Assembly: GCA_000306725.1 (NCBI GenBank)
Contig: CP003083.1
Coordinates: forward strand, 2,468,042-2,532,041
Length of the DNA stretch: 64,000 nucleotides
DNA from: Methanolobus psychrophilus R15
GTDB lineage: Archaea; Halobacteriota; Methanosarcinia; Methanosarcinales; Methanosarcinaceae
Direction: 5' to 3'
Shown here: positions 14,818 to 38,059 of the stretch, one piece after another
Position numbering within the stretch: the first letter of the stretch is position 1
How the letters are laid out: each line of letters opens with the position of its first letter
Made by a program: the position numbers and the translations under genes
The notes under the pieces: generated by a model
Told to the model about the DNA's origin: nothing
The model's database searches: none
The model's input: the letters and a program-made list of their open reading frames with translations, nothing else

Positions 14818-15435
14818 TTAACGGGAACTTCGCTCTTCCACGTACAAGAGGTAGAGACAACTGTTTTCTCTCATTTCCATGAACCCCTGGGTCTCGGAGA
14901 TGCCTGCCTTTTCCAGTAAGACCTTCTTCCAGGATTCAGGAGGAAGTGCAATCTCACCTGTATACGCTTTGGCGCCTATCTGGGCATATTGCAGGGGTTT
15001 GCCATCTATCTTGATTCTTTTTGCCACTTCTTTCCTGTAGGTCTGATGCATCATGCATGCGCTGTGAGCTGCTGATGGCTGTATCGTATGATTATAGTGA
15101 TCTGTGGCCTCAACATGCACAGGATTGAAGTTGCCTATACGTTTGATATACTCCCTTATCGCCTTGGAGAACGGGCATATATTGGTGACGAAACCGTATT
15201 TGCTTATCTGCTCTATGCTCTCAAAGGACGAGAATACAGATTCACCGCTGGCGACAGCTTTTGCAAAATCGTCCCAGGTCTCGTATTCTTCCTCAGGTAC
15301 GGACTTGGCAAGTGATTCAGCCTGGCCGACCATATAATTAGTAAATCCTTCCACGCCCTGTTTATCTGAGATATCCTCAAAGAACAGGAAGACGGAAACA
15401 TCAACAAAAGGATTGGATTCAATATTCTCTGCCAT
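14818..15435 (-). CDS. Uncharacterised Cys/His-motif protein, paralogue A
   Basis: 205-residue soluble protein, family not recognised. Conserved with its neighbour at 15446-16072: a cysteine in CPFSKAIREYIKRIG (about residue 87), D-x-YN, and A-H-S-A-C-M-M-H-Q, so a C...D-YN...CxxHQ pattern possibly binding a metal or cofactor. The N-terminus is less conserved and includes a FEDISDKQGVEGFTNYMVGQAE helix. The ATG at 15435 was chosen over 15453 because AGGGTGAT stands just upstream and overlaps the stop of the preceding gene. Ten bases separate it from paralogue B, so they are likely co-transcribed. The location just beyond the chemosensory cluster suggests, but does not prove, a signalling role. 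Confidence 0.7.
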   Translation of the reverse strand: MAENIESNPFVDVSVFLFFEDISDKQGVEGFTNYMVGQAESLAKSVPEEEYETWDDFAKAVASGESVFSSFESIEQISKYGFVTNICPFSKAIREYIKRIGNFNPVHVEATDHYNHTIQPSAAHSACMMHQTYRKEVAKRIKIDGKPLQYAQIGAKAYTGEIALPPESWKKVLLEKAGISETQGFMEMRENSCLYLLYVEERSSR

Positions 15436-15445
15436 ATTATCACCC

Positions 15446-16072
15446 TTAATCAACTACTTCCTCACCAGCGCTCTTTCCTTTTACTATAATGGCGAATACG
15501 CATGATGCGCTGCGAAGGATACTTTTGATGTGGCGTTCATCCACATTTATCCTTGCAAGATTCTCAGGCACCATTTTCACATCTCCTGTCATGCCTTTGT
15601 TTGCAAGCTGCAGGCATTCAAGGGCCTGTTTAGCGACTGTGATATTATTGGCCGCGATCTCCCTGAATCTCTGGTGAGTGATGCAGTAATTGGAAACCGC
15701 TGAATCCCTGATGCGATTATTGTAACTATCGGCAACGTCGGTGTCTGAATCGGGGATTGGCCCTATCCTGGAAATGTATCTCCTCATTGTAGGTGCCATG
15801 GGGCAGGTCTTCAGTGCATAAACGTATCCTATAACATCCCCGTCCTTGTCAATAATGGCAAGATCGGTAAGTACGTTAACTTCTCCTTCTACAGTGAGGG
15901 ATGTTCTTCCCTCTTTCATTGCCACGTTAAAGGCGGGCCAGCCTACATAAGCTTCTTTGCCCATCCTTTCGGCATAACTTTCACCTACACGGAGCCAGTA
16001 TTCTACAACACCCTCCGTTCCTGCTTTGCTGACCATATCATCAACAAGTGAATATATTGCAATGTCCATCAT
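15446..16072 (-). CDS. Uncharacterised Cys/His-motif protein, paralogue B
   Basis: 208-residue soluble protein homologous to the gene downstream. Shared positions are CPMAPTMRRYISRIG, D-SYNN and NYCITHQRFREIAAN, i.e. the same C...D-YN...CxxHQ pattern. The track of the frame extends 23 codons further upstream, but that part is basic, lies over the promoter TATA region and lacks a ribosome site. The ATG at 16072 follows AAGGAGAACC. A middle segment (VNVLTDLAIIDKDGDVIGYVYALK) looks like a small sensory or ligand-binding fold. Function unknown; no recognised domain. Confidence 0.68.
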   Translation of the reverse strand: MMDIAIYSLVDDMVSKAGTEGVVEYWLRVGESYAERMGKEAYVGWPAFNVAMKEGRTSLTVEGEVNVLTDLAIIDKDGDVIGYVYALKTCPMAPTMRRYISRIGPIPDSDTDVADSYNNRIRDSAVSNYCITHQRFREIAANNITVAKQALECLQLANKGMTGDVKMVPENLARINVDERHIKSILRSASCVFAIIVKGKSAGEEVVD

Positions 16073-16117
16073 GGCTATGGTTCTCCTTATTCGTCTCTCA
16101 CCATTCAATCTAAATAT

Positions 16118-16136
16118 ACTATATTTATATATTAAT
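16118..16136 (-). promoter_or_regulatory. Candidate TATA box for the paralogue pair
   Basis: Very AT-rich minus-strand run AATATATAAATATAGTA about 50 bases upstream of the ATG at 16072. It suggests that the pair has its own promoter as well as possible read-through from the che genes. No other elements are clear. Confidence 0.4.
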
Positions 16137-16193
16137 TGCACTGATTGTTTTTATTCTTTACCATTGAATTATGTATATTATATTAAAATCGCA

Positions 16194-16792: not shown

Positions 16793-17416
16793 TCAGGATA
16801 GCATTTTTCCGATAGATTCCCTTAGCTTATCCAGAGAAGCCGGGTCAAGCAGGAGAAACATGTCTCCATAGATGGTATTCAATCCCTTCCCGTCACCGGC
16901 GTCATGAATCATGAACATCGTTTCAACATTCAGCAACTCGTCAGGTTCATTCTCTATCAGTGAAGAAGCTCTTTTAAGAACATTCAGTATCGCTCCTATG
17001 ACTATCTCCGGGGTGCTATGGCGCACTGCCATATCAAGGAAAGATGTAAGAGCCCCTATATAGGAGCCTGCAAGGATATTTCCCAGTTCGGCAAGTGCAG
17101 ACTCATGCATTGTAGGATCATTGGCCTGTTCAGATTCGCCAAGCATAAGGCTGCTCAGGAGTACAGCATTGTTAAATTCGAATAGAAGCAGGGCAACACC
17201 TCTGAGTTCTCCTTCGATCTTTAACATGACCCCCGCCATAGTGATAGATTCGGGAATCAGCATAGAGACCTTTTCCTGCTGCAGCATTCCCACGTCTGAA
17301 AGGTTTAGCCTTACATTACGGCTTACGAGTTTTGAAAGGGAGGTTGTTGCATTTCCCATTCCTATGCTTCCGATCTCTTTGAGCGCGTCAGTCTCGAAAC
17401 TGTTCAATATATCCAT
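16793..17416 (-). CDS. cheC: CheC-type CheY-P phosphatase (fourth cheC)
   Basis: 207-residue CheC/CheX/FliY-family protein. CheC removes phosphate from CheY-P and is stimulated by CheD. Each of its two pseudo-symmetric halves has an E-x-x-N active site. Here the first site reads E14-I-G-S17 (Asn replaced by Ser) and the second E110-L-G-N113 (intact), so only the second half should be catalytic. The rest matches the family, including NILAGSYIGALTSFLDM. It is separated by 17 bases from the Cys-rich membrane protein gene upstream. Gene symbol denotes family; there are four such genes in this cluster. Confidence 0.88.
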   Translation of the reverse strand: MDILNSFETDALKEIGSIGMGNATTSLSKLVSRNVRLNLSDVGMLQQEKVSMLIPESITMAGVMLKIEGELRGVALLLFEFNNAVLLSSLMLGESEQANDPTMHESALAELGNILAGSYIGALTSFLDMAVRHSTPEIVIGAILNVLKRASSLIENEPDELLNVETMFMIHDAGDGKGLNTIYGDMFLLLDPASLDKLRESIGKMLS

Positions 17417-17433
17417 ACTATACCTTACTACCT

Positions 17434-18666
17434 TTATTCAGGCTCAATGACTAATTTTTCATTCTCTTCATTTTGTTCCATGTAGAACTTCTCTCCTACG
17501 TAGAAGCGAACATATTCCTCCCTGCCGCCCTTTACGATACGTATTCTGGAATGCATGATATCTGCAAGATTGAGGAAAAGCCCTTCAAATCTGGAAACAA
17601 TTTTTTCGTCATGTGCTGGTTTATTGAGGAGGCCTATAAGGGTGATCTCACTGGCGCTGAACCTTTCGACCATTTTTGATACGAACTCATAGATCTCCTT
17701 TTCTCCCTCACTGATTATAAGATGTGTAAGGGGCTCAAATATTATGGCGCAATCTTTGGGCAATTTGCTTGTGAGGTCGAAGAACTTATCAAGCTCTGTA
17801 ACCGGTAATTTAATTATTCCATTGTCTTCCGAGACCGTTTTTATAGTGGGTGAGATCTCGATGAACTTCATAGCACCGACATCCATGAGGTCGGCCAGCT
17901 TTTCCCTATAAAGATTTGTTCTTGGCTGGGTGGACACAAGTACTGTGTTCACAGTCTCTCCATACAACCTGAGGCATATTTCGATAACTGCATCCTCATA
18001 TCTCATATGAGGGGCATATTCAAGCAAAGTGGACCGTTTGAACAGATTTGCAGTCTGTTCGAACTCTGCAAAAACACCTGCCCTGTCATTCATGGGGCAT
18101 TTATCGATCTCTTTTTCATACCTGATGCATGTGTCGAGTACATCACAGTCCATGCATGATGTCATGCCTTTGTCAACAACGCACTCATATATCAGGCATT
18201 TTTCTTCTGCATGCTTGTTCTTAGAAATGCATCCCGGACACTTCTCACTCTCATACATCTCACAAAGGGAACATTTCTTTGCACATGCGGATTTCACGAC
18301 CTGGTTCTTCTGGAAAACCATTCCTTCTAGAAGGAAATCCCCAAGTTTCTCCCGGGGAATAGTCCTGAAAGCAGTGAACATCATAAAGCCTGCTGCTGCA
18401 AATATGCTGGTATATACCGCACTCCAGAAACCCAGATAGATAAGAATGGTTTCAGAAACTGTAGGGTCGGGTATACTGACTGCCACAGAAGGGAATATGG
18501 ATGTGGTTATGAGGAATATAGCTGTGAGTGCAAGAAGCAGCCATGCGATGGACCCTTTCTTAGTCTCATAATATACCCTGACCCAGAAGTAAATAGCTGC
18601 TATCCCTGCTGAAAGTGAGATAGAGATGAATAGTATATATACCAATGTGATATCCGGGGTTAACAT
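17434..18666 (-). CDS. Membrane protein with Cys cluster and DUF835-like domain
   Basis: 410 residues in three parts. N-terminal: three hydrophobic helices (about 6-28, 40-62, 74-98). Middle (about 126-195): a dense cysteine region with CAKKCSLCEMYESEKCPGC, CLIYEC, CMDCDVLDTC and a final CPM, resembling DUF3795-type clusters and probably binding zinc or Fe-S. C-terminal (about 215-400): an alpha/beta domain with NTVLVSTQPRTN, DCAIIFEPLTHLI and ASEITLIGLLN, like the DUF835/RecA-like sensor domains of archaeal signalling proteins. Set between cheD and cheC, it is a reasonable candidate for a membrane receptor or scaffold of this chemosensory system; that role is inference. It lacks HAMP and methyl-accepting domains. 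Confidence 0.75.
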   Translation of the reverse strand: MLTPDITLVYILFISISLSAGIAAIYFWVRVYYETKKGSIAWLLLALTAIFLITTSIFPSVAVSIPDPTVSETILIYLGFWSAVYTSIFAAAGFMMFTAFRTIPREKLGDFLLEGMVFQKNQVVKSACAKKCSLCEMYESEKCPGCISKNKHAEEKCLIYECVVDKGMTSCMDCDVLDTCIRYEKEIDKCPMNDRAGVFAEFEQTANLFKRSTLLEYAPHMRYEDAVIEICLRLYGETVNTVLVSTQPRTNLYREKLADLMDVGAMKFIEISPTIKTVSEDNGIIKLPVTELDKFFDLTSKLPKDCAIIFEPLTHLIISEGEKEIYEFVSKMVERFSASEITLIGLLNKPAHDEKIVSRFEGLFLNLADIMHSRIRIVKGGREEYVRFYVGEKFYMEQNEENEKLVIEPE

Positions 18667-18720
18667 TTTGCCGCCACCTTAATTCCTCATCAGATGCTGA
18701 TATGTATTTATATTTAATTG

Positions 18721-19194
18721 TTAATATATTTTTTGCCCTTTTAGAGCACTTTTCACTATAAGCTCGCCATTATCTGTATCCAGGATTATCGTACGTCCAT
18801 AGTTCTCGCCTGTATCTTCTGCGATCAGCGGGATCCTTAGTTTCTTCAGGATTTCCTTGGTTGCAGTGACATTCCTCTCCCCAATATTGAGCTGGGTGTT
18901 TGAGCTGAAGGAAAACATTCTAGCTCCTCCTGCTATTTTTGCTTTGATGGCGTTCTTTGCGGCGCCTTCCTTTACCATACATTCTACAAGATAGGGTATA
19001 CCTGTATCAGCAAACTTTGCAAGATTATCCTTTGCTCTTGCATTTTCTACACTCGGAAGCATTATATGCACCATTCCGCCGACACAGCTGCTTTTATCGA
19101 ACATGGCAACACCTACGCACGACCCCAGTCCAAGGGTCGTTATTTTAGCAGGTTTTTTTGCTACCGCGCTGTCTGCCATTCCTACGATTATCAT
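18721..19194 (-). CDS. cheD: CheD receptor deamidase / CheC partner
   Basis: 157-residue CheD. The enzyme deamidates glutamines of chemoreceptors and binds CheC, raising its phosphatase activity. The expected catalytic residues are in place: T20 (ITTLGLGSC), C26 (GSCVGV) and H43 (GGMVHIMLPS). The IAGGARMFSF and IGERNVTATKEIL segments are also family-typical. It sits five bases after a cheC gene, matching the known functional pairing. The presence of CheD implies that classical receptors exist elsewhere in the genome. Confidence 0.95.
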   Translation of the reverse strand: MIIVGMADSAVAKKPAKITTLGLGSCVGVAMFDKSSCVGGMVHIMLPSVENARAKDNLAKFADTGIPYLVECMVKEGAAKNAIKAKIAGGARMFSFSSNTQLNIGERNVTATKEILKKLRIPLIAEDTGENYGRTIILDTDNGELIVKSALKGQKIY

Positions 19195-19199
19195 AATAT

Positions 19200-19811
19200 T
19201 CAGGTACGCATTTTGTTGATCCTGTCAAGGATGTTCCTCATGGAGGCTGCATCCAGCAGCATGTACATGTCACCGCTCAGGCTATGGTACTCATCTTCAG
19301 CTTCTATCTCAAACAGGGCGGTCAGCCCAATGATATGATCTACTTTTCCGTTCAGGTATTTTCCGCACTTCTTCAATAGGTCCTCAGGGATGCCTTCTGC
19401 CAGTACGGGCAATGAAGGTGTTACTGACATGTCAAGGAACTTTGAAAGAGCAGTACAGTAGGTGCCTGCCAGGATATTTGCCACTTCTATGACAACTGAA
19501 CTCCTCATGTAAGGGTCATTTTCGTATTCTGTGCGTGCAAGCATCATCTCTGATAGTACTTCTGAATGTCTTTTATTCAGCATGAGTATGAAACCGCCGT
19601 TCAGGTCACCTATTACCTTGACTATGGCTCCTGTCTTGCTATGTTCCTCATGATCTGAAATACTGTCAGGGTCAAGAGATGTGAGTTCAGAGGCGCTGAC
19701 CTTGATCGTTTTTCCAATGAGTTGAGAAAGGGCTGTTGTGGCGTTTCCCATACCAATGTTCCCTATCTCATTAAGCGCGTCATAATAGAACTGGTCAAGT
19801 ATAATTTTCAT
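19200..19811 (-). CDS. cheC: CheC-type CheY-P phosphatase (third cheC, both sites intact)
   Basis: 203 residues. It is the only one of the four cheC genes here in which both E-x-x-N active sites survive: E15-I-G-N18 in DALNEIGNIGMGNATTALS, and E109-V-A-N112 in EVANILAGTYCTALSKFLDM. It lies directly before cheD (five bases), so it is the most probable classical CheC that forms the CheC-CheD complex. Ribosome site AAGGAGG precedes the ATG by a short AT stretch. Confidence 0.92.
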   Translation of the reverse strand: MKIILDQFYYDALNEIGNIGMGNATTALSQLIGKTIKVSASELTSLDPDSISDHEEHSKTGAIVKVIGDLNGGFILMLNKRHSEVLSEMMLARTEYENDPYMRSSVVIEVANILAGTYCTALSKFLDMSVTPSLPVLAEGIPEDLLKKCGKYLNGKVDHIIGLTALFEIEAEDEYHSLSGDMYMLLDAASMRNILDRINKMRT

Positions 19812-19827
19812 ATTCTACCTCCTTCAG

Positions 19828-20442
19828 TTATACCATATCGTTAATTCTTGTAAGGATCCTGTCCATCGATTCAGGATCGAACAACGTGAGCAGGATACCT
19901 TCCATCCTGTTTCCTTCCATTGTGAAGAATGTATCAAAGAGAAATGTGTACTCCACGTTCCTACTCATTTCAATGAGTATCTGGTCCATGATGGCGCCAA
20001 GCATGTCATAGGTCTGCATTGGAGGCGAGATCCTGAAGTTCAGTCCCAGGAATTCAGAGAGTGAGCTTACGTAGGAACCTGCCAGGATATGTCCCACTTC
20101 CTCTATGAGGGATTGGTTCATGGAGCTCAGGATATCCGGAGCTTCTTCTCCGGTAATCGTGGTGCATATCGTTTCGGCGGTGTCCCTGGATAGCAACATC
20201 ATGATGTAGCCGTTAATGTCTCCGTCCAAATGCATAATTACTCCTGAGACCACCGTATCAGCGCCGCCGGCACTCTCAGGTACGTCCTCTATCTTCTCTA
20301 TCTTCAGTTCAGGAACTTCTATGCTGATCTGCTTGCCTATCATCTTTGAAAGAGAGGTCACAGCATTGCCCACGCCTATATTGACTATTTCCTTCAAAGC
20401 ACTGGCCTGCAGCTCAGTCAGTTCATCCATCCTGCCTATCAT
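19828..20442 (-). CDS. cheC: CheC-type CheY-P phosphatase (second cheC)
   Basis: 204-residue CheC-family protein. First site intact: E18-I-V-N21 in ALKEIVNIGVGNAVTSLS. Second site changed: E115-V-G-H118 in EEVGHILAGSYVSSLSEFL, with histidine in place of asparagine. It may act as a one-site phosphatase or a binding partner. It is 16 bases upstream of the next cheC and 51 bases downstream of cheR. A second Met (residue 5) is a possible start. Confidence 0.88.
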   Translation of the reverse strand: MIGRMDELTELQASALKEIVNIGVGNAVTSLSKMIGKQISIEVPELKIEKIEDVPESAGGADTVVSGVIMHLDGDINGYIMMLLSRDTAETICTTITGEEAPDILSSMNQSLIEEVGHILAGSYVSSLSEFLGLNFRISPPMQTYDMLGAIMDQILIEMSRNVEYTFLFDTFFTMEGNRMEGILLTLFDPESMDRILTRINDMV

Positions 20443-20493
20443 GTTTTTTCCTCAGTATCCGTTTTTGATTTGCCTGGTTCTGTCGGGCCGCGG

Positions 20494-21330
20494 TCATTTA
20501 CAGTATATTCTTTCTTTTGCGTTGAACGGCTTGAAGCGGTCTTTGGAGGGTCCAAGGAGTGTTTCCGTTTTTCCCATGACAAAGAACCCATTCTCATTCA
20601 GTCCATCGTAAAAGTCCATGTACAGTTTTTCCTGCAGTTCTTTTTCAAAATAAATAGTGACATTCCTGCAGAATATAATGTCAAATCCCTTGATCTTTGG
20701 GCCTGATATCATGTCATGGGACTTGAAGTGCGTCATCTTTTTCAGGCTGTCTATTACATGGTACTGGTTTCCCTGCTGTACAAAATACTTTTTCAGGAAA
20801 GCGGGTCCCACATCTTTCATTTCAATGTCGCTGTAGATTCCTTGCTGGGCCTGCTGAAGGCTCGCCTTGTCTATGTCGGTGCCTGTTATCGATATATTGT
20901 ATCTTTTGATATTAGCTCCCAGAATATGGTCCAGAAGCATTGCAATGGAGTATGCTTCCACTCCTATGGAGCAACCGGCACTCCATATCTTTATGGATTT
21001 GAGAGGACTGCTGCCTTTAGACTTGATCACGGCAGGGAGTACTTCTTTTTCCACGATGTCATATACCTCTGTGTTGCGGAAAAAGTTTGTGACATTGACA
21101 GTCAGCGTATCCATGAGTATAACACGCTCACCATCATTCTCTTTCAGGAGCTTTACATAATCCCCATAATTCTTCGAGCCAGAAGCTCTCAGTCTCACAT
21201 CGATTCTCCTTTTAAAATGGGAATCCTTATAGTACTCACAGTTAAACCCGAGTTTGTCTTTGATCACGTTCTTGAGCATTGCAAAATCTGCATCTTCTTT
21301 CGTAACAATTTTCTCAGCAGTCTTAAGCAT
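20494..21330 (-). CDS. cheR: CheR chemoreceptor methyltransferase
   Basis: 278-residue SAM-dependent methyltransferase that methylates glutamates of chemoreceptors for adaptation. The N-terminal helical domain contains the basic face FKRRIDVRLRASGSKNYGDY; the SAM-binding domain shows NVTNFFRNTEVYD, IWSAGCSIGVEAYSIAMLL and a late FDIIFCRNVTIYFEKELQ. Length and motif order are standard. The ATG follows the stop of the FtsA-like gene with no spacer, so translation is probably coupled. Confidence 0.95.
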   Translation of the reverse strand: MLKTAEKIVTKEDADFAMLKNVIKDKLGFNCEYYKDSHFKRRIDVRLRASGSKNYGDYVKLLKENDGERVILMDTLTVNVTNFFRNTEVYDIVEKEVLPAVIKSKGSSPLKSIKIWSAGCSIGVEAYSIAMLLDHILGANIKRYNISITGTDIDKASLQQAQQGIYSDIEMKDVGPAFLKKYFVQQGNQYHVIDSLKKMTHFKSHDMISGPKIKGFDIIFCRNVTIYFEKELQEKLYMDFYDGLNENGFFVMGKTETLLGPSKDRFKPFNAKERIYCK

Positions 21331-23448
21331 TTAAACCTCCTGGAATTCTATGCTAACTTTGTTTCCGTCTCTCAATGGTGTTGTAAAACGGGCGGGGGTA
21401 CCGTTAACAAAGAGCTTGATGCTTTTTCCTACAAGCTCTTCTCTGTTTATGTCCATGAACTCAAAAAGATCTGAAAGGATAGGGTTCTCATAAGCCCCTT
21501 CTTTTACTGTGATATCATCGCCGTCAAACACTCTTTCAGAAAGTTCTGCCTTCTTTCCATTAACAATTATAGAACTATCGTGACCGTTGAATGTCACTTT
21601 TTCACCATTGAGTATCACACTGGTACTTTTCCGGTTCTCAGGCACCTCAACAATATCATCAACGGTCCAGACGGCCTCACATTTTTCTATCTGCACCTTA
21701 TCCCCGTTCTTGATGATCATGCTGGGAAGATCAACAGGGTCTACCACATTCCCGTTCAGCATGACTGATAATTTTATTCTGTCAAGGAGCTTCGGCTTCC
21801 TGTTCACCGTGACCTGCATCTTGTCAGTGACATCGGCACATGCCACCTGAATCACTTCTTTCAGTGTGAAGGGTTCGATAATGACTTCTGACCTGTCGGG
21901 AACATTATCCTCAGGTGAAACTATTTTTCTATTTACAATAACCGGGGTCATCAGTCTGGTTACTATATCATTGACAGTAATATCTGTAAAAGCGTTCATC
22001 CCCATTTTGGATATAAGCTCCCTGACCGTTATGCTTGCATCCCTGCCATCAGAAGGCGGTTCAAACTCTATTCTGGAACCTTTGTGAACCGGGTCCCCTA
22101 GGTTTGCTCTTTTTCCATCCAGCAGGACGCTGGCATGCTTCCCGGCATCGCCTTCAATAGTTATGAACTGAGAGTTCACTTTGAGTGTAAGGGCAAGTCC
22201 GGGGCGCGGATAAAGTCGTTTTATGTGTGTGGCCACAAGAGCGTCCATCACCGACAGGCCATTAAGTGCCATTAGATGAACGGTTGTGTTATTGACTGTC
22301 AGGTCTGTGAATTCGATGCCCGTCTTGCGGATAGCTGTCAGAGCTATGCCAAGAGGTGTTATCATATCGGCGCCAGTGACTTTGCCAGTAGTGTCCCTTA
22401 ATGTATCTATCATCGCAGGAAGGCGTGCTCCTATTCGCTGCACAGGAACTCCCAGGTGCACTGAAAGCCGTTCTTTGAGCGTAACTGTCTGTGACCCTCC
22501 TCCGACAAGGACGACTGCACGTGGGAACTTTCCATTTATTGCGAGTATCTCGTTTGCTATGTGCAGGGCAAGTTTGTCCACCTCATCGCCAATAACAGAG
22601 ATCACCTCTGCAGCCTGTATCCTGGTGACATTGCCAAAAAAGTCCTTTATCTCTATAATATCACATGCGCAGATCGTTTGCTTTATCTCTTCGCCCTTTT
22701 TAAAATCGACCAGGTAATGGTCACAAATGAAATCCGTTATCTCGTCCCCTGCTTCTGCAACCATGCCATAGCCTATGACCGTTCCGTCATTGGTTACAGC
22801 GATATCTGATGTGCCCGCCCCTATATCCACAAGTGCTATGTTCAGTTTGCGCATATCCAGAGGGATGGCAACACTCAGTGCAGCTATGGGTTCCAGAGTG
22901 ATGCTTGAAACTTCCATGTCGCATCTGGCAAGCACAGCAAACATGCTATTAATGACAGGCTCCGGCAGAAATGTTGCAAGGACCTCTATTGAAATTGAGC
23001 TTCCACAGTGTCCTGTTATGTTCGAGATCCTCTGTCCGTCAAGCTCATACCCGATAACTGAATAACCTACACAGTTAAACCGTTCGCCAGCGTCAATTTC
23101 AGTGCTGGCTCTTGCCACGGCTTCAAACTCGATCTCTGATACATCATTCTCAGTGATCTCCCTGTAAGGCAGGTCAATAGACAGTTTTGCTTTAGATGTT
23201 CTAAGGGCCCTGCCGGCAACTGCCACACAGGCCCGTGTGAGTTTATACCCGATCTCTTTTTCAAGCTCGGCTTTTACTTTCTTTACGACCTCTGCAACCT
23301 TTTCCACATCGTGGATCTGTCCGTCATGCATACTGCGCTCTTCATGTTCACATATGCATGCGGCTTTTACTTCCAGAGGCTCTCCTTCAACAATGAGCCC
23401 CACAACAGTCCTGGTACCTATATCCAGGGCAAAGTGGGAATTGTTCAT
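21331..23448 (-). CDS. FtsA/PilM-like actin-fold ATPase with repeat tail
   Basis: 705-residue protein. Residues 1-375 have the FtsA layout: phosphate-1 motif F6-ALDIGTRTVVGLI, an inserted SHS2-like subdomain (about 70-195, VGYSVIGYELDG), phosphate-2 motif LVDIGAGTSDIAV (206-218) and adenosine motif AVVLVGGGSQTVTLKERL (311-328). Residues 380-705 are an extension holding about five copies of a strand-NG-turn-L-GD-strand unit (about 439-463, 502-525, 561-588, 626-650, 677-703), like beta-grasp/ThiS folds. There is no C-terminal amphipathic membrane anchor as in bacterial FtsA. It is one base from cheC and directly abuts cheR, so it is a real member of the che operon. FtsA is rare in archaea; a cytoskeletal or polar-scaffold role is inferred. 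Long FtsA relatives of this kind are known from clostridia-like bacteria, so transfer is possible. Confidence 0.85.
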   Translation of the reverse strand: MNNSHFALDIGTRTVVGLIVEGEPLEVKAACICEHEERSMHDGQIHDVEKVAEVVKKVKAELEKEIGYKLTRACVAVAGRALRTSKAKLSIDLPYREITENDVSEIEFEAVARASTEIDAGERFNCVGYSVIGYELDGQRISNITGHCGSSISIEVLATFLPEPVINSMFAVLARCDMEVSSITLEPIAALSVAIPLDMRKLNIALVDIGAGTSDIAVTNDGTVIGYGMVAEAGDEITDFICDHYLVDFKKGEEIKQTICACDIIEIKDFFGNVTRIQAAEVISVIGDEVDKLALHIANEILAINGKFPRAVVLVGGGSQTVTLKERLSVHLGVPVQRIGARLPAMIDTLRDTTGKVTGADMITPLGIALTAIRKTGIEFTDLTVNNTTVHLMALNGLSVMDALVATHIKRLYPRPGLALTLKVNSQFITIEGDAGKHASVLLDGKRANLGDPVHKGSRIEFEPPSDGRDASITVRELISKMGMNAFTDITVNDIVTRLMTPVIVNRKIVSPEDNVPDRSEVIIEPFTLKEVIQVACADVTDKMQVTVNRKPKLLDRIKLSVMLNGNVVDPVDLPSMIIKNGDKVQIEKCEAVWTVDDIVEVPENRKSTSVILNGEKVTFNGHDSSIIVNGKKAELSERVFDGDDITVKEGAYENPILSDLFEFMDINREELVGKSIKLFVNGTPARFTTPLRDGNKVSIEFQEV

Positions 23449-23449
23449 C

Positions 23450-24064
23450 TCATCCCATCATCTTTTTCATGATTGCAGCCATTATAACGTCGCTTGCCTC
23501 AGGTTCGAACAGCATGTTGAACTCGTTCCTTGAGTTTGTGGACGGTATATAGCATTCTCCTTTAACGACTATGAACTCGTCAGCAAGCTGTCCAATCTCC
23601 TTCTTGATGAAATCAGTCACTCCTTCCATATTCACATCCATGCGGGGGTCTCCGATGGCAAGGTTGATCCCGAGGAACTCATTGACCACACGCATGTATG
23701 AGCTACAGAGCCGTACTCCCATTTCACGAAGTTTGCGAATTTCCATCTCTTCTATCTTTGTGGTCGTCCCTATAGATTTCTTTAAAAGGAGGTCGGAGAA
23801 TGAAAGTGCTGAGAACTTTGGTAAAAGGATCAGAGTTCCACCGGTCACATCTCCTGAAATACTGAGGTGAATACCTACAACGCTCTTCTGCTTTCCATTG
23901 GAGGCCCTGGAGATGATCTCATCCAGTGATAGCATCTCTACAACAGGGATGTCTATCTTTACCTCTCTGCTGACCATTTTGGAGAGAGCGGTTGCCAGAT
24001 GACCCATTCCGATATTCCCTGCTTCCTGGAATGCTCCTTTTGTCATTTCGTCCATTTCAGTCAT
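23450..24064 (-). CDS. cheC: CheC-type protein (first cheC, one degenerate site)
   Basis: 204 residues. First site intact: E14-A-G-N17 in AFQEAGNIGMGHLATALSKM. The second helix has lost the motif (E114-M-G-V117, in LREMGVRLCSSYMRVV). It may have become partly structural, as in FliY or CheX relatives. The gene lies between cheA (17 bases) and the FtsA-like gene (one base), so it could be the adaptor linking the actin-like protein to CheY-P; this is inference from order. Confidence 0.85.
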   Translation of the reverse strand: MTEMDEMTKGAFQEAGNIGMGHLATALSKMVSREVKIDIPVVEMLSLDEIISRASNGKQKSVVGIHLSISGDVTGGTLILLPKFSALSFSDLLLKKSIGTTTKIEEMEIRKLREMGVRLCSSYMRVVNEFLGINLAIGDPRMDVNMEGVTDFIKKEIGQLADEFIVVKGECYIPSTNSRNEFNMLFEPEASDVIMAAIMKKMMG

Positions 24065-24081
24065 TTTATACCCTCATCATA

Positions 24082-26115
24082 TCATATCAAAGTTGCAATA
24101 TCAAGGATCAGTGCAACGCTTCCATCTCCAAGGATGGTAGCACCTGCAAATCCCCTTGTGTTCTTCAAAAGTTTATTGTCAAGAGTCTTGATGATTACTT
24201 CCTGCTGTCCCAGAAGCTGATCAACAACAAATCCAATATTGCTGCCCATTCTTTCCACAACGACCACTATAAGGTTCTCTTTCTTTTCAGCCTCTCCCGG
24301 GCAGTCAAGGACATCGCGCAGCCTCAGCAGCGGCAGTACCTCTCCACGCAGCAGGATGACCTCTTTTCCTTCAATTGTCTTGATATCCCTGGCCTTTATG
24401 CCCACGTCCCTCACAACATTTGCAAGAGGTATTGCATACGTTTCTCCTGCAATAGTCACCATCAGGGACTGGATGATCGCAACAGTCAGGGGCAGTTGCA
24501 GTTTGATGGAGCTTCCCTGGCCCGGCACCGAGCTGACCTTTACGGTGCCTCCAAGTGCTTCTATCTTAGTTTTGACCGCATCCATGCCGACTCCCCTGCC
24601 TGAGACATCGGTGATGGTCTTCGCACCGCTGAAGCCAGCCACGAATATAAGGTTAAGTGCATCCGTGTCAGAGAGCTTATCCACTTCTTCGCGGCTCATT
24701 ATTCCCTTTTTAACCGCAATGTCTCTCAAGTGCGCAGGATCCATGCCTTTTCCGTCATCCTGCACCTCTATGATTACACTGTTCCTCTGCCTTGAAGCGG
24801 AAAGACCGACAAAACCCGCGACAGGTTTGCCGAGTTTTATGCGTTCTTCAGTAGGTTCGATGCCATGGTCTACGGCATTGCGCAAAAGGTGGACAAGCGG
24901 GTCTCCTATCTCGTCAAGCACAGTTCTGTCAAGTTCTATCTCCTTCCCTTCGATGACAAGGTCCACTTGTTTACCTTCTGATTTTGCAAGATCCCTTATC
25001 ATTCGCGGGAATCTGCTGAACACCTGGTCGATAGGCACCATCCTGGCTTCCATGACCTCGTTCTGTATCTCGTTGGTCAGGCGGTCCAGGTTAGCAAGAG
25101 ATTCATCAAGACTTTTGGCATTGATATCGGAAGCAAGCTGGTTCAGTCTGATCTTGTTGATGATCAGTTCACCCACAAGATTCATGAGATTGTCAAGGCG
25201 CTCAATGTTGACCCTGACGCTCTGGATGCTTTTTACAGATTCTGATCTCTTGACACCTGAACTACATTGCTGTGGCTCGTTTGCGTCTTCTTTTGTCGTG
25301 GATTCGGTTTCGTCATTTTCACACGCATACAAAACTGAGATATCAATAGCCTTGATCTCCGATATCTTTTTAATTACTTCCGTAATTCTGGCATCATCCT
25401 CTTTTGTGGCAAAGACGACAGAAAACTCAAAGCCGAACTTCTCATCCTCCAGATCTGCTTCGGATGGCATGCACTTAATGATCTTTCCCATCTTTGACAG
25501 GTTTATGAGTACAAGCGTGGACCTTGCTGACTTCAGTACACAGGATGGATCAAGCATGACTTTTAATTCAAGTATCCTGTTCCCTTCATGAAGTGCAGTC
25601 TCAATGTTTGCATTTTCAGATTCAGACAACTGAATGTGCATTTCTGTTTCATGAGCAGGCTTTAATTTTTCCTGAGTATGTATTGAGACTGTTCCTGCAA
25701 GGTCGTTTGCAATGTTGCCTGTGGTTCCAACAGCACAAAGAGCACCTTCCATGGCTTGCGTAAGGGAGGCCTGCAGATGGGATATGTTAACCTCACCCCC
25801 GGTGTCCACGCTCTCGACAAGGGCTTCAAGTGTATCCAGGCACTCAAAAAGTATATCGATAAGGGAGTCACTGACAGCCACCTGGCATTTGCGTAGCATG
25901 TCCATCAGATTTTCCATCTCATGGGTCAGTTCCGCGATGGTGCTGAATCCCATGGTAGCTGACATTCCTTTGAGGGTATGTGCAGAGCGGAACATCGTGT
26001 TGATATATTCGATCTCCATGGGGTTCTGTTCAAGCCCGAGCAGAGACTCATTCAACTGTTGGAGATGTTCTTCAGACTCTGCTTTGAAAATATCTTTATA
26101 TTCTGACATATCCAT
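24082..26115 (-). CDS. cheA: CheA sensor histidine kinase
   Basis: 677-residue CheA. Domains in order: P1/HPT with phospho-acceptor H46 in FRSAHTLKGMSATMGF; a P2-like CheY/CheB-binding region (about 180-270); P3 dimerisation (about 295-360, LDNLMNLVGELIINKIRL); P4 ATPase with HLLRNAVDHGIEP, DDGKGMDP and GRGVGMDAVKTKIEALGG; and P5, the CheW-like coupling domain to the end. It phosphorylates CheY and CheB in response to receptor state. No cheW gene is nearby, so the coupling protein must be encoded elsewhere. It is separated from cheB by 61 bases. Confidence 0.96.
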   Translation of the reverse strand: MDMSEYKDIFKAESEEHLQQLNESLLGLEQNPMEIEYINTMFRSAHTLKGMSATMGFSTIAELTHEMENLMDMLRKCQVAVSDSLIDILFECLDTLEALVESVDTGGEVNISHLQASLTQAMEGALCAVGTTGNIANDLAGTVSIHTQEKLKPAHETEMHIQLSESENANIETALHEGNRILELKVMLDPSCVLKSARSTLVLINLSKMGKIIKCMPSEADLEDEKFGFEFSVVFATKEDDARITEVIKKISEIKAIDISVLYACENDETESTTKEDANEPQQCSSGVKRSESVKSIQSVRVNIERLDNLMNLVGELIINKIRLNQLASDINAKSLDESLANLDRLTNEIQNEVMEARMVPIDQVFSRFPRMIRDLAKSEGKQVDLVIEGKEIELDRTVLDEIGDPLVHLLRNAVDHGIEPTEERIKLGKPVAGFVGLSASRQRNSVIIEVQDDGKGMDPAHLRDIAVKKGIMSREEVDKLSDTDALNLIFVAGFSGAKTITDVSGRGVGMDAVKTKIEALGGTVKVSSVPGQGSSIKLQLPLTVAIIQSLMVTIAGETYAIPLANVVRDVGIKARDIKTIEGKEVILLRGEVLPLLRLRDVLDCPGEAEKKENLIVVVVERMGSNIGFVVDQLLGQQEVIIKTLDNKLLKNTRGFAGATILGDGSVALILDIATLI

Positions 26116-26176: not shown

Positions 26177-27271
26177 TTATCTTAGCATATGGACTATCTC
26201 GCTTGATACTCTTTCAAGGCTCACTGTACTATCTGACAGCCCGCGCTGGACAACCACTTTTGGCATACCATAGACCACACAGGACTTCTCATCCTCTGTT
26301 ATCACCTTGCCGCCGGCTTTCTTTATCTCTTCGGCCCCATCCGCCCCGTCTGCCCCCATTCCGGTGAGCACTACAGCAAGTATGTTTTGCCCGTAGAGCG
26401 GAACCAGGGATTTGAAAAGGATGTTCGCACATGGCCTGACACCCTGCTCACGCGGATTCTGGTTAAGGGAAACAACTTCTGATGTACGCCCGCTTATGCT
26501 CTTCTGTACTATCTCCATGTGGTAGTTTCCCGGAGCAATGTATACAACGCCTGGTTCCAGCACGTCTCCATCCTTAGCCTCACATACAGTAAGTTTTGAC
26601 TGCATGTCCAGCCTTTGTGCCAGGGATGCTGTAAAACCTGCTGGCATGTGCTGTACAACGACAACTGGTACCTTCAGGTCTCCAGGCAGTTTTGGAACTA
26701 CCTGCTCAAGTGCCCGAGGTCCCCCGGTAGAGGAAGCTATCGCAAGTATCTTCTGGTTTGAAAAGTGTTTTTTCCTTGAGTCTTCAGGGGGCTTTGCAGG
26801 TATACTTAGCTCTTTCTTTGCATGGGTTCCTCTGGAATTCACATGTTCTTCCATAAAGCCTAGCTTTTTAAGGTCCACTTTAGATGCAATTTTGACTTTT
26901 AAACGGATGTCATCAGCTATATCCATTATATTCAGGCTGATATTGCCGGAAGGTTTCTGGATAAAGTCTACAGCTCCATATTCAAAAGCGTTCAATGTTC
27001 TTTCGGCAGACTTTGGATCGATGGCCGTGAGCATTACCACTGGAGTCGGACACTCACTCATGATGTATCCGAGTGCATGCAGTCCGTCAAGTGTTGGCAT
27101 CTCAACGTCAAGAGTGACCACATCAGGCCTGAGCTTCTCAACTTTTTCCACAGCGTCGAGGCCGTTCCTTGCTGTTCCTATCACTCTGATCTCCTGATCT
27201 TCTGAAAGGATGTCAGAGATAACTTTACGCATCAGTGCCGAATCATCGACTACAAGGACATTGATCGTCAT
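26177..27271 (-). CDS. cheB: CheB methylesterase/deamidase response regulator
   Basis: 364 residues. N-terminal receiver domain with phospho-site D55 (TLDVEMP) and a C-terminal methylesterase with the catalytic triad around S181 (IASSTGGPRALE), H208 (VVVQHMPAGFT) and the aspartate in TGMGADGADG. It removes methyl groups from receptors opposite to CheR and is activated by CheA. Its ATG shares a base with the cheY stop (TAATG on the minus strand). Confidence 0.96.
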   Translation of the reverse strand: MTINVLVVDDSALMRKVISDILSEDQEIRVIGTARNGLDAVEKVEKLRPDVVTLDVEMPTLDGLHALGYIMSECPTPVVMLTAIDPKSAERTLNAFEYGAVDFIQKPSGNISLNIMDIADDIRLKVKIASKVDLKKLGFMEEHVNSRGTHAKKELSIPAKPPEDSRKKHFSNQKILAIASSTGGPRALEQVVPKLPGDLKVPVVVVQHMPAGFTASLAQRLDMQSKLTVCEAKDGDVLEPGVVYIAPGNYHMEIVQKSISGRTSEVVSLNQNPREQGVRPCANILFKSLVPLYGQNILAVVLTGMGADGADGAEEIKKAGGKVITEDEKSCVVYGMPKVVVQRGLSDSTVSLERVSSEIVHMLR

Positions 27272-27627
27272 TACATTACTTTTCCGATAACTTCCAGGAC
27301 CTTTGCGGCATCAAACGGCTTCACTATGAAATCAAGGGCTCCGCTTTTGAGAGCATCAGTAACTACTGACTGCTGCCCAATGGATGAGCACATGATCACT
27401 CTTGCAGAAGGGTCCATTTGCATTATTTTCTTTAATGCATCGGTCCCTTCCATATTTGGCATAACGATGTCCATGAACACCAGGTCCGGTTTGAACTGGG
27501 GATATTTCTGGACAGCATCAAGTCCGTCAACACATTCAGCCACGACCTCATGACCATTCTTTTTCAGAATATCCTTGATGACCATGCGCATAAATGCGGC
27601 GTCGTCCACAATCATTACTTTTGCCAT
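27271..27627 (-). CDS. cheY: CheY response regulator
   Basis: 118-residue single receiver domain. Phospho-acceptor D53 (LVFMDIVMPNMEG), acidic pair D8-D9, switch residues in IMCSSIG and lysine in FIVKPF are present. It is the first gene of the cluster and is expressed from the upstream AT-rich region. CheY-P is the diffusible output that CheC proteins dephosphorylate; in archaea it reaches the archaellum through CheF, which is not in this window. Confidence 0.96.
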   Translation of the reverse strand: MAKVMIVDDAAFMRMVIKDILKKNGHEVVAECVDGLDAVQKYPQFKPDLVFMDIVMPNMEGTDALKKIMQMDPSARVIMCSSIGQQSVVTDALKSGALDFIVKPFDAAKVLEVIGKVM

Positions 27628-36415: not shown

Positions 36416-38059
36416 ATGGGTGAAGTAAAAAAGGGGAAGGTGCTCATAGTCGACGATGAGCAGGTGAACATAGCGTTACTGACAGCTTATCTGAAAGACA
36501 GCTATGATACAATCTCCGCACAATGTGGTAAAGAAGCACTTCATATGGCCCGGGAGCATGACCCAGACATAGTCCTGCTTGATATAATGATGCCTGATAT
36601 TACCGGGTACGAAGTGTGTAAGATACTGAAAGGCTCTGAAAAAACCAGGTTCATACCTGTGGTGATGGTAACAGCCCTGTCCGGTACAGAAGACCGTATA
36701 AGGGGGTTACAGGCAGGAGCGGATGATTTTCTTACCAAGCCACTTGACAAGATAGAAATAGTTACCAGGGTCAGTTCCCTTCTTCGCATAAAGCGCCTGC
36801 ACGACGAACTTATAAGCGAGCGTGACCAGGCCAATCTTTACCTTGACCTTGCCGCAGTCATGTTGCTTGTAATGGACGAAAAAGGCACCGTAAAACTCCT
36901 TAGCAAAAAGGGTTATGATGTGCTGGGTTATCTTGAAGGTGAGCTGACAGGGACCAATTGGTTTGACAATTGTGTTCCTGAGTCTGCAAGGGAGCTATCC
37001 AGGAGAATACTCACGGATTTCTTTTCAGGAGTGATGTCCTTTGAAGGTTATTTTGAGACCCCTGTGCTGACAAAGGGTGGTAAAGAAAGAATAATCGGCT
37101 GGAACAATATTGTTCTCATGAAAGACTACGGAAATGAGAGCAGCCTGCTCATCTCAGGGACGGACATTACAGAAAAAAAGGATGCAGACGAGAAAATAAA
37201 GCGCGCTAATGAGTATCTCGGTAATCTTCTGGAAGCTTCTCCCATTGCAACTCTTTCAATTGACATCGACACGAATATTACCACTGCTAATAAGAATGCT
37301 GCCAACCTGCTTTGTATGCATGTGGACGACCTTCTGGGAAGACCTATCTCATCCCTTGTGGAGGGCGATGTATTTTCCGATTTTAAAGATATCAGGGATA
37401 GTGAGGTCATTTTTTTCAGGGGGAATGGGGCAAAGGTCCCGATGAACGTTTCAACTTCCTTGATAAAGAATAACGAAGGGACTACGGGCCTTATCATCGC
37501 TTTGCAGGAACTGTCAAAACTTAGAGGTTTGTTCATCACTCCGCTGACAGAGGATATGCAGGATGCTGGGGACGATTTGCAACATGAGCTCGAGCCGGGT
37601 TCTATATATCTGGCAGACTGCAACAGGAAAGATGAAGGATACTTACTTTTCTCGAAACTTGTGAAACAGGGAAAACCAGGGTTATGTATAACAAGAAAGA
37701 ATCCCGAGAAGATTCGCTTGCTTTATGGGCTCTCAAAGACCCCTCTGGTATGGATGACCCGGAACAAAATCACTGGCCAGCAAACTCTGGACCCTTCTGA
37801 ATTATTCAAGATACATCCGACCATACATGATTTCATTCATAAGGTCAGTGACGGCGTAATACTAGTGGATGGCCTGGAATACCTGCTTCTTGATAATGAT
37901 TTCATTTCCGTCATCAAACTGATCGAGCAAACAAATGACACTGTTATGGCATCGGACTCCAGACTGATAGTGCAGGTCGATCCCGGTACACTTGACAAGA
38001 AAGATTTCCACTTGCTTAAAAGATGGATGAAGCTATTAAAAGTTCCAAAGGATATCTAG
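36416..38059 (+). CDS. Response regulator REC-PAS-PAS-DUF835
   Basis: 547 residues. Receiver domain (8-125) with D56 (IVLLDIMMPDITGYE) and K near FLTKPL; first PAS (about 140-255), second PAS (about 265-375), then a C-terminal DUF835 domain (about 405-540: GSIYLADCNRKDEGYLLFS, KTPLVWMTRNK). No kinase or DNA-binding domain is present, so output is probably through protein contact of DUF835, a RecA/KaiC-like fold found in archaeal signal proteins. The KaiC-like ATPase gene follows after 43 bases. The phosphodonor kinase is not adjacent. Confidence 0.85.
   Translation: MGEVKKGKVLIVDDEQVNIALLTAYLKDSYDTISAQCGKEALHMAREHDPDIVLLDIMMPDITGYEVCKILKGSEKTRFIPVVMVTALSGTEDRIRGLQAGADDFLTKPLDKIEIVTRVSSLLRIKRLHDELISERDQANLYLDLAAVMLLVMDEKGTVKLLSKKGYDVLGYLEGELTGTNWFDNCVPESARELSRRILTDFFSGVMSFEGYFETPVLTKGGKERIIGWNNIVLMKDYGNESSLLISGTDITEKKDADEKIKRANEYLGNLLEASPIATLSIDIDTNITTANKNAANLLCMHVDDLLGRPISSLVEGDVFSDFKDIRDSEVIFFRGNGAKVPMNVSTSLIKNNEGTTGLIIALQELSKLRGLFITPLTEDMQDAGDDLQHELEPGSIYLADCNRKDEGYLLFSKLVKQGKPGLCITRKNPEKIRLLYGLSKTPLVWMTRNKITGQQTLDPSELFKIHPTIHDFIHKVSDGVILVDGLEYLLLDNDFISVIKLIEQTNDTVMASDSRLIVQVDPGTLDKKDFHLLKRWMKLLKVPKDI

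Follow-up and report, generated by a model that had tools for sequence, protein, structure and literature searches.

Four CheC paralogues that differ in catalytic and CheD-docking residues in one chemotaxis gene cluster of Methanolobus psychrophilus R15

In phosphatases of the CheC kind, the amide of an Asn orients the attacking water, and an acidic residue binds the lysine of the receiver (PMC3035606). Among HisKA kinases, Thr in place of this Asn is reported to give partial activity in CrdS, which Gln and Asp do not (PMC3510030). Residue D149 of Bacillus subtilis CheC lies at the interface with CheD, and the substitution D149K is reported to lower CheD binding with normal phosphatase activity (PMC3513319). 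FliY proteins of Campylobacter, Helicobacter, and Leptospira are described as lacking active sites (PMC6946799). For Halobacterium salinarum, the reported partners are CheF and CheD for CheC2, CheD for CheC3, and CheB for CheC1 (PMC3579733). The same source states that CheC2 binds both CheF1 and CheF2 and compares this protein with FliY, and the separate roles of the several CheCs are given as unknown in the papers on that organism (PMC3579733).

We analyzed a window of 64,000 nucleotides from the genome of M. psychrophilus R15 (3.07 Mb, one contig; CP003083.1, positions 2,468,042 to 2,532,041), in which a che cluster on the minus strand encodes four CheC paralogues, named CheC-A to CheC-D here (Table 1). 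The reference for residue numbering was Thermotoga maritima CheC (chain 1xkr; E13/N16 and E112/N115). Alignment with this protein reproduced all four sets of active-site residues given by a first-pass annotation of the window. Its statement that every frame is full length was also correct, the four ORFs being uninterrupted and encoding 203 to 207 aa. All four scored above the cutoff of the Pfam CheC model (PF04509); for CheC-A, the match covered the first half alone. The ExxN pair, the mark of the CheC family, is present at least once at the T. maritima positions in each protein (site 1 in CheC-A and CheC-B, both sites in CheC-C, and site 2 in CheC-D); two pairs, which are typical of the family and not obligatory, occur in this genome in CheC-C only.

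Table 1. Positions in the window of the che genes, neighboring genes, and key codons, with the short CheF-like protein encoded elsewhere in the genome
Feature	Position	Strand	Remark
cheY	27271..27627	-	NF041367 CheY_Halo, E 6.1e-36
cheB	26177..27271	-	Named from sequence and blast conservation in relatives
cheA	24082..26115	-	Name based on sequence and blast conservation in relatives rather than on a family search
cheC-A, 204 aa	23450..24064	-	E14/N17 (site 1) retained; E114/V117 (site 2) dismantled; N145 at CheD-interface position
cheC-A codons E14 to N17 (site 1)	24014..24025	-	E/N in 35/35 orthologues
cheC-A codons E114 to V117 (site 2)	23714..23725	-	Never N in 35 orthologues
FtsA/PilM-like ATPase with C-terminal ThiS-like stretches	21331..23448	-	Within che cluster, between cheC-A and cheR
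cheR	20494..21330	-	PF01739, E 2.3e-52
cheC-B, 204 aa	19828..20442	-	E18/N21 and E115/H118; D146 at CheD interface kept
cheC-B codons E115 to H118 (site 2)	20089..20100	-	H 42, N 5, Q 2 of 49
cheC-B codon D146	20005..20007	-	Corresponds to T. maritima D143 and B. subtilis D149; Asp in 49/49
cheC-C, 203 aa	19200..19811	-	E15/N18 and E109/N112 intact; G140 at CheD-interface position
cheD, 157 aa	18721..19194	-	PF03975, E 3.3e-36
Cys-rich membrane protein	17434..18666	-	Between cheD and cheC-D; only a sub-threshold DUF3795 match
cheC-D, 207 aa	16793..17416	-	E14/S17 (site 1) altered; E110/N113 (site 2) retained; G141 at CheD-interface position
Short CheF-like protein, ~195 aa	G000:C1:469391-469975 (L159:7389-7976)	-	Downstream of an archaellin-like gene, far from che cluster

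Other genes in and beside the cluster are shared with relatives. The FtsA/PilM-like ATPase was found in nearly all clusters of the Methanolobus group and in one further genome (G003); among the loci compared, it was not seen in the che clusters of two other genera (g11 and g12). The Cys-rich membrane protein is conserved in the Methanolobus and Methanomethylovorans groups. Two adjoining genes (positions 15446 to 16141 and 14818 to 15453) encode proteins with 80 to 100% identity in the A- or D-bearing clusters compared, far more conserved than the neighboring che proteins; the former had no family match in Pfam, and the latter had none in NCBIfam.

Among 111 genomes of the Methanosarcinaceae, cheD was found in 69, and 60 regions were fetched. 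These regions and the window yielded 145 CheC ORFs, later 150 with the addition of five copies away from cheD. The 150 rows are not every CheC of the family, nine cheD places having been left out or lying in genomes already represented, and where regions end at contig ends (L040, L046, L067, L070, and L072 among others), missing paralogues prove nothing. CheC-A (E < 1e-90) was counted in 36 of the 111 genomes; 35 sequences were aligned, a copy on another contig (G046) being left out. In the resulting tree, the paralogues formed four separate clades of 35 (A), 49 (B), 23 (C), and 35 (D) rows, beside eight single-copy CheCs of the che1 type. The stem branch of CheC-A had a length of 2.2 to 2.6 changes per column. 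Four of the 60 regions (L084, L086, L087, and L089) contained che2-type clusters with cheD and no CheC at an E value of 1e-5; a che cluster with cheD and no cheC has been reported for Methanosarcina barkeri.

The site states found in the window recurred throughout the respective clades. Site 1 was E/N in every row of CheC-A (35/35) and CheC-B (49/49). At the Asn position of site 2, CheC-A had V (21 rows), L (8), I (2), M (2), S (1), or F (1), and CheC-B had H (42), N (5), or Q (2), with five letter changes within the clade. CheC-C was EN/EN in all 23 rows. CheC-D had S (28), G (4), T (1), or N (2) at site 1 and N (34) or S (1) at site 2; the two rows with the site-1 Asn, which keep both sites, are those of Methanohalobium (G029 and G030), and the one-site state of CheC-D is not universal. 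When the two Asn columns were excluded from tree building (151 rows), changes between Asn and another residue numbered 2 for site 1 and 6 for site 2. In shuffled controls (200 each), the means were 30.4 (minimum, 25) for site 1 and 50.4 (minimum, 41) for site 2; the shuffling ignores relatedness, and the comparison shows clade-wise fixation, not selection. EN/EN was also found in the che1-type CheCs and in CheCs of two genomes from other families of the order, so the two-site state is likely ancestral.

A wider CheC motif, D/S-x3-E-x2-N-x22-P, was reportedly described by Muff and Ordal in 2008. Site 2 of CheC-A has Lys or Arg at the D/S position of this motif in 31 of the 34 rows printed (35 in the clade), and the motif Pro is absent from site 1 in all 35 rows of CheC-D and all 23 rows of CheC-C. 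At site 2 of CheC-B, the Ser and Pro of the motif are present in 49 of 49 rows, everything but the Asn being retained. The count of two paralogues that had lost the second site, as made in the first-pass annotation, therefore stands for CheC-A but is doubtful for CheC-B, in which one position alternates among His, Asn, and Gln and the rest of the motif is fully conserved. The His at this site cannot be called dead from sequence, and CheC-B is probably not a one-site protein. Similarly, the description of one paralogue, CheC-C, as fully intact is right for the ExxN pairs but not beyond them, the site-1 Pro and the CheD-docking Asp both being absent. Because Thr in place of Asn retains partial activity in CrdS (PMC3510030), the Ser at site 1 of CheC-D may not be wholly dead. 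Judged by their motifs, CheC-A and CheC-D are the clearest one-site proteins of the four.

The paralogues were also separated by the residue at the CheD-docking position, for which T. maritima D143 was matched to B. subtilis D149 by register. This residue was Asp in all 49 rows of CheC-B and in all 8 single-copy CheCs of the che1 type, Gly in all 23 rows of CheC-C, Gly (34) or Glu (1) in the 35 rows of CheC-D, and Asn (30) or Asp (5) in CheC-A. The interface Asp characteristic of class I CheC is, in other words, a feature of CheC-B that CheC-C and CheC-D lack. In the che2-type clusters of genera without CheC-A, CheC-B was the only cheC product encoded beside cheD, and where a relative has a che2-type cluster with a single CheC, this CheC is CheC-B, and its gene adjoins cheD. 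In Methanolobus, the gene directly adjoining cheD is cheC-C; CheC-C, with its intact pairs and this position, was considered as the CheD partner and rejected on the interface residue (Gly in 23/23). As the Asp is kept in CheC-B and replaced by Gly in CheC-C and CheC-D, CheC-B rather than CheC-C looks like the partner of CheD. The loop from CheY-P through CheC to CheD most likely belongs to CheC-B, and CheC-C is probably not a partner of CheD.

Altered active sites could mark genes that are being lost, and two observations fit such decay: catalytic Asn residues have been substituted, and CheC-C is missing from three Methanolobus-group loci. However, the frames are full length here and in the loci examined, and identical states are found across genera, the clade of each state spanning several genera except for that of CheC-C. 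Median dN/dS values (NG86, 21 Methanolobus-group loci) were 0.055 for CheC-A (25 pairs), 0.051 for CheC-B (16), 0.064 for CheC-C (19), and 0.071 for CheC-D (19), as calculated from pairs with 0.05 < dS < 1 only (16 to 25 of 210 per paralogue), most pairs being saturated. All four paralogues are under strong purifying selection. Decay of copies, which the first-pass annotation had argued against on the basis of the full-length frames, is highly improbable and already refuted as far as sequence can refute it, with states fixed or nearly so in each clade. It is improbable, too, that the CheCs are kept for their amount while one of two pseudo-symmetric sites drifts as dispensable, a single site being sufficient. 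Such drift would explain why every CheC of this genome retains at least one full E/N pair and why one pair is so constant across clades (site 1 of CheC-A, 35/35; site 1 of CheC-B, 49/49; site 2 of CheC-D, 34/35), but not why the choice of the lost site is clade-specific across several genera (2 and 6 changes versus about 30 and about 50 after shuffling). Nor does it predict that the most conserved of the four should be CheC-A, despite its having the most damaged second site (mean identity in Methanolobus, 0.861, versus 0.754 for CheC-B, 0.717 for CheC-C, and 0.677 for CheC-D). The pattern of catalytic and docking residues points to a division of labor rather than to decaying copies.

A division of labor could also lie in the targets: the four CheCs may act on different receivers (CheY, CheB, or other CheY-like proteins), the site differences being by-products of partner fit. 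In line with this, CheC1 of H. salinarum binds CheB, whose receiver has been proposed as its target (PMC3579733), and the present genome encodes other receivers, named from sequence, including a CheY-like protein near the archaellum operon and a REC-PAS protein (positions 36416 to 38059). The docking Asp splits cleanly among the paralogues, however, which target choice alone does not predict, and we consider target specialization possible but on the unlikely side. To the reading that the four CheCs, all of the CheC/FliY/CheX phosphatase family, have long been functionally distinct and serve one CheA-CheY system, we give about even chances. Under this reading of separate roles, CheC-B, which retains site 1, the Asp for docking of CheD, and a site 2 with His, Asn, or Gln, would be the general copy and would probably run the CheY-P-sensing CheC-CheD adaptation loop. 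CheC-C, with both catalytic pairs and no docking Asp, would probably be a CheD-free CheY-P phosphatase. CheC-D would use site 2 alone. CheC-A would use site 1 alone and, like FliY in bacteria, would be bound to a partner close to the switch, here that of the archaellum.

The term subfunctional division, which the first-pass annotation applied to the four copies, was not borne out in the sense of complementary losses from one two-site ancestor: CheC-B is the widespread copy, and CheC-C sits on a long branch and, among the loci compared, is confined to the Methanolobus group, in which 23 of 26 loci have it. CheC-C pairs with CheC-D (support, 97 in the quick tree and 100/97 in the careful tree), and the two have in common the Gly at the CheD position and the missing site-1 Pro. 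A tree with CheC-C derived from the CheC-D of Methanolobus was better than the quick tree by 14.4 log units (p-AU, 0.76); the careful tree, for which nine near-identical loci were dropped and only five CheC-B rows and two outgroup rows were kept, holds CheC-D apart from CheC-C with a support of 91/89. CheC-C may have split off before CheC-D diversified or have come from the CheC-D of Methanolobus, and the tree does not settle between the two. If CheC-C came from CheC-D, either it regained the site-1 Asn or CheC-D lost this residue several times. Because the origin of CheC-C is left unsettled by the tree, we set strict subfunctionalization aside. CheC-C is possibly a recent, fast-evolving duplicate, and its role may be redundant. 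Overall, these results improve the earlier interpretation and do not overturn it.

In an AlphaFold2 model (21 sequences; pLDDT, 85.2; pTM, 0.83), CheC-A keeps the predicted CheC fold in both halves. A Foldseek search with the model matched 38 PDB chains at E values of ≤0.001, all of the CheC/CheX/FliY/FliM kind by description; the lowest E value was that of CheC (1xkr; 1.3e-16), and the highest TM-score was that of FliY (4hyn_A; 0.82/0.83). CheC-A (204 aa) ends with the CheC fold and has no C-terminal SPOA/FliN domain and was for this reason not classified as FliY.

The genome contains the archaellum operon arlCDE-F-G-H-I-J (L121), the first gene being identified by PF04659 and FlaC matches and the others named from sequence. 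CheC-A was carried by every genome of genus g1 except G054 and by G003, G029, G030, G065 to G069, G071, and G073; outside the family, nothing better than 1.8e-29 was found in 237 genomes of the class. PF04659 was found in all 36 genomes with CheC-A, and a close ArlH was found in 35; the remaining genome is 70% complete. CheC-A is absent from 33 genomes that have cheD, and this ArlH type was found in six of those 33. Five of the six have che1-type clusters and full-length CheF, and the sixth is 72% complete. CheC-A and CheC-D were found in genomes that share a particular type of archaellum, in the case of CheC-A the type encoded here, a co-occurrence that comes from a handful of genera with shared history, which are not phylogenetically independent. 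One 99% complete genome of the Methanolobus group (G054) has an archaellum (PF04659 and ArlH) with no cheD and no CheC. An absence of archaella from the che2-type genomes without CheC-A (g13, probably Methanosarcina, and g5) had first been hinted at by PF04659 alone; this idea was dropped, since those genomes encode ArlH-like proteins of 26 to 31% identity. Methanosarcina is reported to have a full fla set (Schlesner 2009).

Full-length CheF was found in 17 of the 111 genomes and in none with CheC-A, and neither the Pfam CheF model nor a Methanosarcinaceae CheF alignment detected it in the present genome. The Pfam model misses clear CheFs in three genomes (G019, G021, and G025; L092 and L094) that the family alignment finds at E values of <1e-150. 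A short CheF-like protein (E ≤ 1e-50) was found in 38 genomes, 35 of them among the 36 with CheC-A; it occurs without CheC-A in G070, G072, and G108, and one complete genome (G064) has CheC-A and lacks it. It consists of the second PH-like domain and the winged helix of CheF, with the first PH-like domain missing, and aligns with columns 93 to 258 of the CheF profile (hhalign, 96.5%); its only PDB matches at E values of ≤1 were two CheF entries (7ovp, 0.032, and another, 0.36). The idea of an archaellum without CheF, in which a CheC paralogue had replaced CheF, was dropped in view of this homologue of the second half of CheF. In G073, which has the same genus code as Methanosalsum (G071), arlCDE, archaellins, the short CheF-like protein, and MCP/CheW are encoded on about 32 kb (G073:C1:591000-622900), and this stretch runs up to a che cluster with CheC-A at 626330.

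From the co-occurrence of CheC-A with the archaellum type and the short CheF-like protein, together with the binding of CheF by CheC2 of H. salinarum, we propose that CheC-A acts on the motor side, which is a lead and not proof. A wider scenario, which is speculative and as a whole rather unlikely, assigns archaellum switching in Methanolobus and four related genera to a rewired set of adaptors, consisting of the truncated CheF and a one-site, CheY-P-binding CheC-A, whose dismantled second face would now serve for docking. Such a set would be an archaeal counterpart of FliY/FliM. CheC-D would be in this set, CheC-B would keep the CheD loop, and CheC-C would be a free phosphatase.

We found no earlier description of this four-way CheC pattern in the CC-licensed literature searched. 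One cluster provides four natural variants that differ in the retained catalytic half and the docking residue, so that straightforward assays could tell which of them account for phosphatase activity, for CheD docking, and for action at the motor. The results suggest a possible role of a CheC-type protein at the archaellum, comparable to that of the CheC-type domains of FliY and FliM at the flagellum.

The closest known systems each resemble part of this locus. Class I CheC of B. subtilis and T. maritima (1xkr and 2f9z) has the same two-fold CheC fold, ExxN pairs, a gene beside cheD, and the interface Asp seen in CheC-B. Unlike the present set, it is a single copy and keeps both Asn residues (T. 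maritima), whereas CheC-B has His at site 2, CheC-C and CheC-D are without the interface Asp, and CheC-A mostly has Asn there. The several CheCs of H. salinarum (CheC1, CheC2, and CheC3) likewise occur in one archaeon and have different partners; two of them are single-domain proteins and one is a two-domain protein, whereas all four of the present proteins have two domains and differ in which half is altered. The short CheF-like protein matches the second half of archaeal CheF (DUF439) but, at about 195 aa, lacks the first PH-like domain and is encoded outside the che cluster. FliY of T. maritima (4hyn) and the middle domain of FliM offer the nearest parallel to CheC-A, whose model is closest to FliY by TM-score. 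CheC-A has no SPOA/FliN domain, and its host is an archaeon with an archaellum, not a flagellum, but FliY provides a precedent for the loss of active sites in a CheC domain located at the switch.
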